DNA of 38,677 bases, from positions 1-38,677 of the forward strand of contig WFXF01000093.1 in NCBI GenBank assembly GCA_015490755.1, given 5' to 3'. A program made the position numbers and the translations under genes. Below, one piece after another: positions 22,751 through 26,529 of this stretch (positions are counted from its first letter, which is position 1; the number at the start of each line of letters is the position of its first letter). Below the pieces are notes generated by a model, which was given only the letters and a program-made list of their open reading frames with translations, made no database searches and was not told where the DNA came from. Source of the DNA: Gammaproteobacteria bacterium. Lineage in GTDB: Bacteria > Pseudomonadota > Gammaproteobacteria > JAADGQ01.

Positions 22751-22779
22751 ATTATACCCTTTCAGAGACTATATGTTTA
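22751..22779 (-). promoter_or_regulatory. Probable ppc promoter
   Basis: A consensus -10 TATAAT (22751-22756, minus strand) is preceded 17 nt upstream by TAAACA (22774-22779, 4 of 6 matches). The -35 lies inside the end of the aldo/keto reductase gene. The leader of about 60 nt contains a small CTAGG/CCTAG hairpin. ppc can thus be transcribed separately from the genes upstream. Confidence 0.55.
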
Positions 22780-23734
22780 CTGGATTATGCAGATGCTGCC
22801 AAAGAGCTTGGCCACATAACTTTATCAACATGGCCTGCTCTGCCTGAAAAAAACTTTGATACCTTAATAGAGTTTGAAACTGACAAGGCGTTTTAGGACC
22901 GACGATAACACCTGAAACACCTCTGAAATTGAAAGCCCAGGCAAGAACCAAGGCAGCGACAGGAACTGTTTTTTCCTCAGCCAATTGATGCAGCTCATCC
23001 AGCCAGAGTCGAATTCTGGATGAATTAAAATATGGATTACTGCGACGAAAATCTTTCTTACCCAGTACTTTCAAACCCGACGAACTTTTTCCATCACCAA
23101 GCAAACCTTGCTCTAATGGCGAATAAACCAGATGATAACAGCGCGCTTGTTGCTCACCTGCTTGCAAAATATCATCACTACGATGGATGGGGTTATGGTG
23201 TACCTGATGTGCTATTCCTGCAAATTCAGGAATATGTAATTCAACCTGTTTGGCCATTAAATTACACACCCCCCAATGACGGATCAAACCTTCTTGCTGA
23301 AATTCACGCAAAGCATCCAGACTTTCACCAATCGGCACCTTCGGGTCAGGCCAATGCAATTGATACAGATCCAGATAATCCGTACGCAGCCGCTTCAGAC
23401 TTTGCTGCAAACTTTGGCGTAAAGCTTCAGGGCTGGCTCGATGAAAGACATTGCGTCCCTCCCACTCCAACCCCCCTTTGCTCGAAATAAATATCGATCC
23501 CCGATGATATTTGGATAATTTTATGAGTAACTTTTCCGATTTTCCATGCGCATAAAAACCAGCGGTATCAAAATGGCGAACCCCTGCTTTAAATGCATAT
23601 TCAAGCAGTGCTTGCGCATCTCGTGCATCACAAAAACCAAAGCCTTCACCGCCCATGCTCCATGTTCCCAACCATAATCGGGGCAATACAGCCCCTTCAC
23701 TTTGCAGCGGCATGAAAGGAAACGGTGTCACCAT
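22769..23734 (-). CDS. Aldo/keto reductase, substrate unknown
   Basis: This is an NAD(P)H-dependent oxidoreductase of the AKR barrel family. The catalytic tetrad is complete: D56 and Y61 (HFDTAGFYAHGKSEKLL), K86 (FISSKGG) and H127 (YQLHWPDP). The cofactor site near the C-terminus reads SGVIVGPKTP. At 321 residues it is normal length. Its ATG is only 2 nt after the stop of the SPL-like radical SAM gene, so the two are surely co-transcribed. The substrate cannot be named; the pairing may mean that it acts on something linked to that protein. Confidence 0.88.
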   Translation of the reverse strand: MVTPFPFMPLQSEGAVLPRLWLGTWSMGGEGFGFCDARDAQALLEYAFKAGVRHFDTAGFYAHGKSEKLLIKLSKYHRGSIFISSKGGLEWEGRNVFHRASPEALRQSLQQSLKRLRTDYLDLYQLHWPDPKVPIGESLDALREFQQEGLIRHWGVCNLMAKQVELHIPEFAGIAHQVHHNPIHRSDDILQAGEQQARCYHLVYSPLEQGLLGDGKSSSGLKVLGKKDFRRSNPYFNSSRIRLWLDELHQLAEEKTVPVAALVLAWAFNFRGVSGVIVGPKTPCQFQTLLRYQSFFQAEQAMLIKLCGQALWQHLHNPVNI

Positions 23735-23736
23735 TA

Positions 23737-24858
23737 TTATACTTTCGAGCTTTCGTATGATTCCCGGTCAGGGGCCTGATGCACCAAGCCCGGAAAACGG
23801 CGATAGAGTGATTCCGTCATCAAAAAATCAAGATGCTCTGCAGATTCAGGGCTAGCTCCAAACACTTTTTTCCACATATCCCATCGCTCCATACAAAGAT
23901 AGACATAGGGTTCATTACCGCCATGATGACGAATCAATTGATACAGATGCTTATACATCGCTGTACGCAGCGGCTTGATATAGCGCATCTTGCCATCATC
24001 ACCCAACACCATTTCAGCAGATGTCATACGACTTTTAGGAAAATTATGTTCCATCGACTTTTTCATTTCGGGGTTAAAGCGCAAACTGCCAATCGAAATC
24101 CATGCCACCTGTTTTGGTGAAACCATTTGAAACAGCTGTTCAATTAGCTGCTCATAACCCGCCTCCCAATCTTCGTGTAAAATCATGGGATCAAAATGAA
24201 TCGCTACAAGATAGCCATCATCGGCCACTTTTTTAATGGCTTCCAGACGCGCTTGCAATGGTGCTGTTTTAAGCTCTTCAGCTGTAATCACTGCTTGCGG
24301 ATTCAAGCTCCAGGCAATCACAACACGTCGGCCGTGATCCAACCCCAACAAGCTATCAACATGCGCTGATTTGGTTTTCAATTCCAGCAAGCAGTTTTTC
24401 ATCGACTGCACAGCAACCACTAATTCAGCAGACGCATGAGTTTCAGGCTCTAATGCAAGGCTATCGCCCAGCTCCCAGGTTCCAAAACGAAAAAATCGCC
24501 ACGGCTCTTCGGCGGCTCGTTTTTTCACATCAGCCAATAAAGCCGCAGTATCCGCAACAACAGAGGTCGTTGTATCCGTTAAATAGTTTTGCAAAAAACA
24601 GTACGAACAATCGTAAGGACAATTACTCACAGATGGCAAAACATACACATTACAGCAGATATATTTATCGCTCTGCGAGGCGCAACGACTAAATGCACTG
24701 CCTTTTTTTTGCGTAATGGCAATTACTTTTTTGCCATTACGATAATCCGATGTGTTTGGTGCAACATCAACCTCTGCGACATTGTCACTCACTTTCGAAA
24801 AATGCTGGGCAATCGCACTGCCCTGCTGGCTTTTTTCTACATAACCTTTGTATTTCAT
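23737..24858 (-). CDS. Spore photoproduct lyase-like radical SAM protein
   Basis: The radical SAM cluster motif is C80-x3-C84-x2-C87 (NCPYDCSYCFLQNYL). This lengthened form and the surrounding sequence (ICCNVYVLPSVSNC, FRFGTWELGDSLALEPETH, AIHFDPMILHEDW) match the SPL/SplB family of DNA photoproduct lyases. The 373 residues are close to B. subtilis SplB. However, the region where SplB has its hydrogen-donor cysteine (C141) reads FGTWELGDSLA with no cysteine. It is therefore probably an SPL-family relative with a different or altered activity. This genome shows no sign of sporulation here. Extra cysteines at 59, 68 and 69 precede the cluster. It forms a pair with the aldo/keto reductase. Confidence 0.82.
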   Translation of the reverse strand: MKYKGYVEKSQQGSAIAQHFSKVSDNVAEVDVAPNTSDYRNGKKVIAITQKKGSAFSRCASQSDKYICCNVYVLPSVSNCPYDCSYCFLQNYLTDTTTSVVADTAALLADVKKRAAEEPWRFFRFGTWELGDSLALEPETHASAELVVAVQSMKNCLLELKTKSAHVDSLLGLDHGRRVVIAWSLNPQAVITAEELKTAPLQARLEAIKKVADDGYLVAIHFDPMILHEDWEAGYEQLIEQLFQMVSPKQVAWISIGSLRFNPEMKKSMEHNFPKSRMTSAEMVLGDDGKMRYIKPLRTAMYKHLYQLIRHHGGNEPYVYLCMERWDMWKKVFGASPESAEHLDFLMTESLYRRFPGLVHQAPDRESYESSKV

Positions 24859-24934
24859 AGTTTTAAAGTGAATTAATAGCTAATAAAATAGCGCCAGCAG
24901 GTTTCATTTCAGGTTTGATGTCAATTACTAAATT

Positions 24935-25228
24935 TTAATCGAGCCTTCCTTTTATCCATGCTGGATTTTTACGGCAGTCCAGAACGGCATATACAATAAT
25001 ATCTTTATGTTCGATGCAATAATAGATTGCAAAAGGGAAGCGTTTTGAAAGCAATCGATAGTATTTGCCTAAATAAACAGGGTGAATCCCGTGATAAATC
25101 AGTAAGGAATCAATATCTGAAAACAGACTGTCGAGAAAATAACTGCCTATACCTTCTTCCTGTTGCTCATAAAAATCATAACCATTTAATAGATCGTCAT
25201 TGGCTGCCGGCAATATTTTTATCTTCAT
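24935..25228 (-). CDS. RelE/ParE-family toxin
   Basis: This is the toxin of a type II toxin-antitoxin module, with 97 residues and the ParE-like fold. It starts KIKILPAANDDLLNGYDFYE and has the core YRLLSKRFPFAIYYCIEHKDIIVYAVLDCRKNP. The family includes gyrase poisons and ribosome-dependent RNases, and I cannot tell which this is. Its ATG overlaps the antitoxin stop by 4 nt, so antitoxin is made first and translation is coupled. Confidence 0.88.
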   Translation of the reverse strand: MKIKILPAANDDLLNGYDFYEQQEEGIGSYFLDSLFSDIDSLLIYHGIHPVYLGKYYRLLSKRFPFAIYYCIEHKDIIVYAVLDCRKNPAWIKGRLD

Positions 25229-25437
25229 TTAATCTTTTGGCGTATTTGCTCTTTCACTGTTGTCCAGTTCATCGCTTGCTGGTTGCCAGCAATACGTTGC
25301 TGCTCCCGCGATGAGAGAACAGATTCATGCCAATCGGGGGATTCCAGTGAACTGTGTTGGCATAAATCATTCCAGAGGGTTTCCATAACAGAAAGTTTTT
25401 CTGCCGTTGTCATTTTTTCGGGTGATATGGTCACCAT
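25225..25437 (-). CDS. Antitoxin, addiction module component (PF09720-like)
   Basis: This 70-residue partner of the ParE-like toxin shows the Unstab_antitox pattern: an N-terminal helix TTAEKLSVMETLWNDL, SPDWHESVLSSREQQRI, and a C-terminal TVKEQIRQKIK that should wrap the toxin. It carries no obvious DNA-binding domain. The start is ATG with AAGGAG 8 nt upstream. It is the first gene of the module and has its own promoter. Confidence 0.88.
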   Translation of the reverse strand: MVTISPEKMTTAEKLSVMETLWNDLCQHSSLESPDWHESVLSSREQQRIAGNQQAMNWTTVKEQIRQKIK

Positions 25438-25474
25438 GCCTTATTCTCCTTATGATTTTTTGGATGCTACTTTG

Positions 25475-25503
25475 AGTATAGGAAGTATATAGGCAAAGAT
25501 CAA
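25475..25503 (-). promoter_or_regulatory. Promoter of the toxin-antitoxin module
   Basis: On the minus strand, TTGATC (25498-25503) and TATACT (25475-25480) are separated by exactly 17 nt. The leader is about 30 nt and contains AAGGAG. The promoter lies between the ParB-like gene and the antitoxin, so the module can be transcribed on its own. Confidence 0.6.
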
Positions 25504-25539
25504 AGGAGGGACAGACTTGATTGATTACCCCTTTTGATA

Positions 25540-26529
25540 TTACAAGTGCTCAAACAGTTTCTGAATTCCTTGATTCACTTGATCAGACTGCAAACGTTTT
25601 ACCACCTGCTGCCACTCTTCAGGCTCTTTTACGACAAACATCATTTTGAGCTCTCGATTTTCCAGCGTAGAATCCCATACCAGGCTTACTTGCGTTGGTA
25701 ATTTCATTGAGGCTTTTGATTCCACCATTTCCTGATTAATTTTTGTCAATAAAGGGTAGCGACGCAGATGAACCAACTTGCGCAGCTGCGCAGTTTTTTC
25801 CTGTGGGCTGAGGTTTGAACCCAGAAGAGAAAGAACTTCATCATCCTGACGAAATTCATCAATCGTCAACTCATGCGCTCTCAAGTGATCTTTCAGTGAC
25901 TCACATAATTCGTTGACAACAGCGGCTGTTAGAAAGAGTTGTTGTCGCCATGAAAATACCAGATCAACAACACCTGGTGGGTGACGTGTCAAGTGATAGC
26001 ACTGCTTCATCGAAAAGTTTTTTTCTGTACAAAAATCCAGCACACCATCTGGTAGCTTTGCAATATTTTCCAGGCGTCTCAACACTCGATCATGCGCGCC
26101 CAAACCCAGTGCCGGTAAAAAAATCTCTAATACCTGCTCGCGGGAAACACCCGATTGAATTGCTGAAGTCACACAGCGCAGCTTATCAATAAATCGGCTC
26201 TCTCTGTTTAGCCCAGACTCATGCAGAGCAATATTAAAAACATTTACATTACAACAACCATCATTCGCGCTACCCTCCAATAAAACAGCGCATGATACCA
26301 GGCTGGCCTTATTTTCAATTAAAAATGCCAGACGCTTAAAACCATCCACCAAGTGATATTGACCCGAAACTTTTTTAACCAACAGCGGCTGCAACACACC
26401 CAGCGCCTGAAAAGCAGCTTCAAGTGGTGCATGATCAACCTTGATTTCACCCCATTGAAACAGACGATTAAGACGATAAGGAGAGTCTTCAAGGGAAATT
26501 TCTGAAACTGGAATCTCAGAGATATTCAT
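25540..26529 (-). CDS. ParB-like nuclease/partition-domain protein, function unknown
   Basis: The N-terminal part resembles the ParB/Srx-type domain: an FQALGVLQPLLVKK segment is followed by YHLVDGFKRLAFL (58-70), where ParB proteins have their GERRxRA-type CTP-binding loop. A helical middle part (about 110-200) contains QVLEIFLPALGLG and RVLRRLENIAKLP, like the ParB helix-turn-helix region. The C-terminus (VWDSTLENRELKMMFVV) is unfamiliar. No parA is adjacent, so a role in chromosome partition is unlikely. I chose ATG at 26529 because GCAGG lies 8 nt upstream; ATG at 26544 and TTG at 26595 are alternatives. It lies upstream of the TA module and the SPL-like gene on the same strand. Confidence 0.72.
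   Translation of the reverse strand: MNISEIPVSEISLEDSPYRLNRLFQWGEIKVDHAPLEAAFQALGVLQPLLVKKVSGQYHLVDGFKRLAFLIENKASLVSCAVLLEGSANDGCCNVNVFNIALHESGLNRESRFIDKLRCVTSAIQSGVSREQVLEIFLPALGLGAHDRVLRRLENIAKLPDGVLDFCTEKNFSMKQCYHLTRHPPGVVDLVFSWRQQLFLTAAVVNELCESLKDHLRAHELTIDEFRQDDEVLSLLGSNLSPQEKTAQLRKLVHLRRYPLLTKINQEMVESKASMKLPTQVSLVWDSTLENRELKMMFVVKEPEEWQQVVKRLQSDQVNQGIQKLFEHL

Follow-up and report, generated by a model that had tools for sequence, protein, structure and literature searches.

The question raised by this locus is whether a short block of genes between ppc and ftsY forms a functional unit, and if so what it does. The window, that is the whole 38,677-nt stretch of DNA analysed (contig WFXF01000093.1 of assembly GCA_015490755.1, from a Gammaproteobacteria bacterium), carries in this block genes for an aldo/keto reductase (AKR), a radical S-adenosylmethionine (SAM) protein resembling spore photoproduct lyase (SPL), a toxin-antitoxin (TA) pair and a ParB-like protein. 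We found that a conserved chromosomal module of four genes is involved. Those for the ParB-like protein, the SPL-like protein (of the clade named here SPL-A) and the AKR are in the window, and the fourth, encoding a nucleosidase-glycosyltransferase fusion, is located elsewhere in the genome. The TA pair is an insertion that lies outside the conserved system. No description of this gene combination was found in the open literature, and the gene set is a real, widely scattered and apparently undescribed system.

The ParB-like gene (329 aa, 25540..26529), the SPL-A gene (373 aa, 23737..24858) and the AKR gene (321 aa, 22769..23734) are all encoded on the minus strand, and were the sole matches when the module's own profiles were run on the whole window. 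The open reading frame (ORF) coordinates confirm that the AKR gene follows the SPL-A gene after only 2 nt. Searched against 84,980 species genomes, the SPL-like protein returned 15 loci, distributed among Pseudomonadales, relatives of Beggiatoa, Nitrospirota, Bdellovibrio and several unplaced bacterial metagenome-assembled genomes (MAGs). Together with relatives of the window and further Nitrospirota, these gave 23 loci for comparison besides the window. At 16 of the 23, a same-strand ParB gene precedes SPL-A within 200 bp, with gene overlap in several cases; an AKR gene lies downstream within 50 bp at seven and within 750 bp at two more. Contig ends truncate several of the loci that remain. 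ParB-SPL-AKR is thus a recurrent operon, free of the TA pair, in Gammaproteobacteria, Nitrospirota and other phyla. Furthermore, the ParB-like protein was found in 23 of the 24 SPL-A genomes, often on another contig than SPL, and among 321 genomes of the class its family is confined to the three SPL-A genomes and one weak match. The initial annotation had singled out this block as the window's best candidate for an undescribed system and had proposed to look for recurrence of the reductase and ParB-like genes beside SPL-like homologues without the TA pair; the recurrent operon and the co-occurrence bear this out. As a separate observation, one Nitrospirota locus (L151:7077-11458, genome G487) carries SPL-A without ParB or AKR, followed by polysaccharide-flippase-like and phosphodiesterase/pyrophosphatase-like ORFs.

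The fourth member, PNP-GT, is a fusion of 460-550 aa in which a PNP_UDP_1 nucleosidase domain of the methylthioadenosine/S-adenosylhomocysteine type is joined to a GT2 glycosyltransferase (GT) domain. It is located directly upstream of ParB at L002, L008, L010, L014 and L147 and on the G324 contig; the copy in the window genome lies on a separate contig (G000:C41:52739-54184). Across the 24 SPL-A genomes it is full-length in 19, partial in four and missing in one fragmentary MAG. In the 198 Nitrospirota genomes, the nucleosidase part is present in all seven with SPL-A, six times as the full fusion; among the 191 without SPL-A, none has a full-length PNP-GT and three have the GT alone (Fisher 4.7e-13, uncorrected for ancestry). 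A PNP-GT search of plasmids gave no match. The catalytic Glu, Met-Glu and Asp of the MTA/SAH/5'-deoxyadenosine nucleosidase MTAN (PF01048) are invariant in both nucleosidase groups, which match each other by profile, and the PNP half matches MTAN structures by profile (3eei, E 3e-13). It differs from MTAN in being fused to GT2 or SPL and in scoring under all curated equivalog cut-offs. An AMP nucleosidase gene beside ParB at L009 was considered as the nucleosidase partner and rejected, being that of an ordinary AMP nucleosidase in a genome whose PNP-GT sits elsewhere.

The same enzyme set surrounds a second SPL-like clade, SPL-C, with a short-chain dehydrogenase (SDR) as reductase, and in part a third, SPL-B. 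Contiguous GT-PNP-SPL-SDR operons are found with SPL-C in many gammaproteobacterial families, and SPL-B genomes carry GT-PNP-SDR with SPL-B alongside or elsewhere. The GT is present in 26 of 28 genomes with an SPL-like match, against 24 of 293 without (p = 3e-22, ancestry uncorrected), and 13 of 15 families agree. Three forms of fusion occur: PNP-GT, the reverse order GT-PNP (L075), and PNP-SPL. The last, from Fusobacterium vincentii, is a 623-aa nucleosidase-SPL protein encoded ahead of an SDR gene (L262:5098-7898), on a 2.1-Mb record (NZ_CP084075.1) that is filed as a plasmid and is chromosome-like. Within the GT-PNP-SPL-C operon of genome G013 there is also a DSP-PTPase-like phosphatase gene (L112:7457-7963), and in G235 (L131) PNP is preceded by a similar ORF.

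SPL-A matches PF20903 with 104 bits and shares with SplB (PF20903, TIGR04070) the CxxxCxxC radical SAM motif (C80/C84/C87), a predicted SPL fold over 345 columns that includes the C-terminal part (TM-score 0.80 normalised to 4rh0; AlphaFold, Foldseek) and Tyr97, which is kept in all three clades (Y86 in the window protein). In SPL, the product radical receives a hydrogen atom from Cys141, after which Tyr99, aided by Tyr97, regenerates SAM (PMC5368176). Unlike SplB, SPL-A has lost this relay: at the position of Cys141 (Bs; Cys140 in Gt) there is Glu in 17/17 SPL-A (E129 in the window), Gln in 7/7 SPL-B and Tyr in 11/11 SPL-C sequences, and at Tyr99 (Bs) there is Phe in 17/17 SPL-A (F88), Ser or Thr in SPL-B, and Phe, with one Tyr, in SPL-C. 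SPL-A further differs by extra invariant cysteines (C59, C68, C69 and C322), and forms a separate clade with PNP-GT, the ParB-like protein and the AKR as partners. The window protein scores 119.3 bits on the SPL equivalog TIGR04070, whose cut-off is 400 bits.

The ParB-like protein is composed of a ParB/Srx-type N-domain, a ParB-like helical middle domain and an extra C-terminal domain. Its predicted structure (AlphaFold; predicted local distance difference test score 86.3) has Noc, ParB and Spo0J as best PDB folds (Foldseek), with global TM-scores kept low by the extra domain. It shares the ParB_N fold and the helical domain with the ParB/Noc partition CTPases, but differs from them in falling below Pfam and NCBIfam cut-offs (PF02195, 15.9 bits for a cut-off of 26.3) and in its CTP motifs, since in a profile alignment to 6sdk ENxxR is not conserved and DGFKR replaces GERR. 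No parA is adjacent in the window or in genomes G001 and G002, in agreement with what the initial annotation had observed for the window. The protein has probably lost the partition function. The AKR (PF00248, 183 bits) has kept an invariant tetrad, D56-Y61-K86-H127.

What could such an enzyme set make? The reading that we favour, with a probability of about one half, is that a SAM-consuming radical enzyme acts with the nucleosidase, the reductase and the glycosyltransferase to make a sugar- or nucleoside-derived metabolite; a small modified molecule is more likely as the product than DNA repair is as the function. Consumption of SAM would agree with the loss of the Cys141/Tyr99 relay and would call for a nucleosidase, since radical SAM enzymes are inhibited by 5'-deoxyadenosine and nucleosidases are known to dispose of it (PMC8102628). 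The presence of a glycosyltransferase, in turn, points to a product, beyond clean-up. In this scheme the SPL-like enzyme would use SAM as a consumed substrate, and the 5'-deoxyadenosyl radical would act on an acceptor; the reaction would form a 5'-deoxyadenosyl adduct or else release 5'-deoxyadenosine as a by-product. Adenine would then be stripped off by the MTAN-type nucleosidase, and the AKR, or the SDR in the sister clades, would reduce the freed sugar aldehyde or carbonyl intermediate, a step with a precedent in the reduction of 5-deoxyribose to 5-deoxyribitol (PMC6079011). Finally, the GT2 domain would glycosylate the product. The scheme draws as well on the recurrent operon, on the co-occurrence of the members in genomes where they are not linked, on the sister clades and fusions, on the MTAN-like residues of both nucleosidase groups, and on two genomes in which an AKR homologue has an adenosine-type deaminase on one side and an aldehyde:ferredoxin oxidoreductase on the other. 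The ParB-like protein may be a regulator or a nucleotide- or nucleic-acid-binding subunit, and this is the weakest step of the scheme.

Menaquinone (MqnE/MqnB), hopanoid (HpnH/HpnG) and arsenosugar (ArsS) pathways combine a radical SAM step with loss of adenine, followed by reduction and glycosylation. The proposed module would share their radical SAM and nucleosidase logic, but their radical SAM enzymes belong to families other than the SPL-like one. The hopanoid pathway itself was rejected for the window genome, whose best HpnH match reaches 43.6 bits for a cut-off of 225. Queuosine salvage through a QueL-like lyase was also set aside, as the QueL paper makes no link to SPL and no match to the QueL family or structure was found. 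A more specific proposal, which we regard as tentative and less probable, is that SPL-A, SPL-B and SPL-C are all non-repair enzymes at the origin of a widespread biosynthetic pathway. They would join 5'-deoxyadenosyl to an acceptor, and the nucleosidase, reductase and glycosyltransferase would turn the adduct into a new class of glycosylated pentose-tailed metabolites or cofactors, with a ParB-derived accessory subunit in clade A.

Several points weigh against the metabolite pathway. The full SPL fold, its C-terminal part included, is predicted to be kept in SPL-A. The cysteine C59, invariant in SPL-A and SPL-B, aligns with C74 of Clostridium acetobutylicum SPL and with S76C of 4rh0, in a loop whose alignment is uncertain; C74 is an alternative donor in the C. 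acetobutylicum enzyme (PMC5368176), so that a return of hydrogen and a lyase-type reaction could still occur. A purely metabolic scheme leaves the ParB-like protein without a place, and the SPL-C genomes that were tested yielded no match to it. The AKR is less strictly tied to SPL-A, being strong in only 12 of the 24 genomes and weaker in five. Lastly, some of the ParB-like sequences counted also belonged to the search profile, and the genome counts take no account of shared ancestry.

The first two of these points, with the ParB fold and its helical middle domain, are what speaks for DNA-lesion repair. There, the SPL-like enzyme would reverse a photoproduct or cross-link with C59 as donor, the ParB-like protein would recruit it to the nucleoid, and the nucleosidase and reductase would clear the by-products of SAM. 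We hold this to be unlikely: both Cys141 and Tyr99 are replaced, the score is far under the SPL equivalog cut-off, lesion reversal would leave a dedicated glycosyltransferase without a role, and ultraviolet (UV) light would be an unlikely driver in Fusobacterium, where the sister enzyme is fused to a nucleosidase. The initial annotation had suggested an undescribed "DNA repair or nucleoid-linked" system of the SPL-like protein, the reductase and the ParB-like protein. The recurrent system stands; the function proposed for it lacks support in that form, given the missing relay, the low SPL score, the altered ENxxR and GERR motifs, and PNP-GT, out of sight of the initial annotation, as the strongest further partner. 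DNA or RNA may nevertheless be the substrate.

Nucleic-acid hypermodification ranks below repair and is likewise doubtful. The radical SAM enzyme would alter a tRNA, rRNA or DNA base, GT2 would glycosylate it, the nucleosidase would clear 5'-deoxyadenosine and the ParB-like protein would recognise the nucleic acid. It would account for the combination of a DNA-acting radical SAM fold, a soluble GT2 and a ParB-like DNA-binding fold, and one GT2 member weakly matches a TET-associated DNA glycosyltransferase model (E 4e-4). However, GT and SPL have the nucleosidase as their fusion partner and no protein that binds nucleic acids, the SPL-C systems tested do without the ParB-like protein, and viral contigs hold weak relatives only.

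Less probable still is general housekeeping salvage, in which the nucleosidase and AKR/SDR would dispose of 5'-deoxyadenosine and 5-deoxyribose, with the SPL-like enzyme as one client among many. The MTAN-like nature of the nucleosidase and the known reduction to 5-deoxyribitol agree with it, as does an AKR homologue between genes for an adenosine-type deaminase and an aldehyde:ferredoxin oxidoreductase in two Nitrospirota genomes (L279:3444-7708 and L280:3715-7868), whose SPL-A is located elsewhere. Yet the pairing is strict with the SPL-like clades and not with radical SAM enzymes at large, and both GT and the ParB-like protein would be left unexplained. A chance neighbourhood of unrelated genes near ppc plus a TA insertion, which the window alone might suggest as the genes look unrelated there and the TA pair, flanks and order differ among genomes, is hardly credible, being contradicted by the recurrence across phyla, the genome-wide co-occurrence and the fusions.

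The gene set has consequences for annotation. In family searches SPL-like proteins come up as "spore photoproduct lyase" (PF20903, TIGR04070), and they may be taken for UV-repair genes in species that form no spores. The gene set argues for another function of the three SPL-like clades; its nucleosidase is attached to the radical enzyme in one lineage and to the glycosyltransferase in others. A group of radical SAM enzymes thereby receives a concrete assignment that can be tested, possibly together with a new metabolite, and the ParB-like protein provides an example of this fold recruited to a task other than partition.

The five minus-strand ORFs of the block all lie at the positions first annotated, with ppc downstream and ftsY upstream and divergent; throughout the family the cassette is found no more than a few kb from ppc, with local rearrangement. 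The TA pair occupies the stretch between ParB and SPL (24859..25539). It consists of the antitoxin gene (25225..25437, PF09720, 40.9 bits) and a ParE-like toxin gene (24935..25228, PF05016, 19.2 bits), both on the minus strand and overlapping by 4 nt. The tentative assignment to type II relies on this overlap and on the antitoxin, which scores above its family cut-off, the toxin being below its own of 23 bits. In a genome of the same genus (G001) SPL starts 12 nt after the ParB stop. The corresponding interval in the window is about 670 bp long and includes the TA pair, which is thereby identified as an insertion. Of the two roles first proposed for it, insertion or stabiliser, the second was rejected, as the pair is missing from this congener and from every other locus with a visible ParB-SPL gap. 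Its supposed own promoter corresponds to a single sigma-70-like consensus match (25503-25475, 9/12 positions), which is a weak indication because 14 such sites occur in the region and 8.9 +/- 2.5 in shuffled versions.

A role in anti-phage defence was considered and rejected, since PADLOC models gave no family at E <= 0.1 for the five window proteins and viral contigs hold weak SPL-like or GT-only relatives only. More distant SPL-like genes were seen in other settings. In Nitrospirota genome G339 (L155:887-8674) one adjoins a three-Cys-motif-partner-like ORF and a UvrD-like helicase gene, and on large viral contigs from IMG/VR (L191:4854-6890 and L192) the ORF that comes after another such gene, of 26% identity, carries a second radical-SAM-like motif. 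On the Roseomonas plasmid p546-2 (L265:7-4420), two SPL-family genes come directly after repA-repB.

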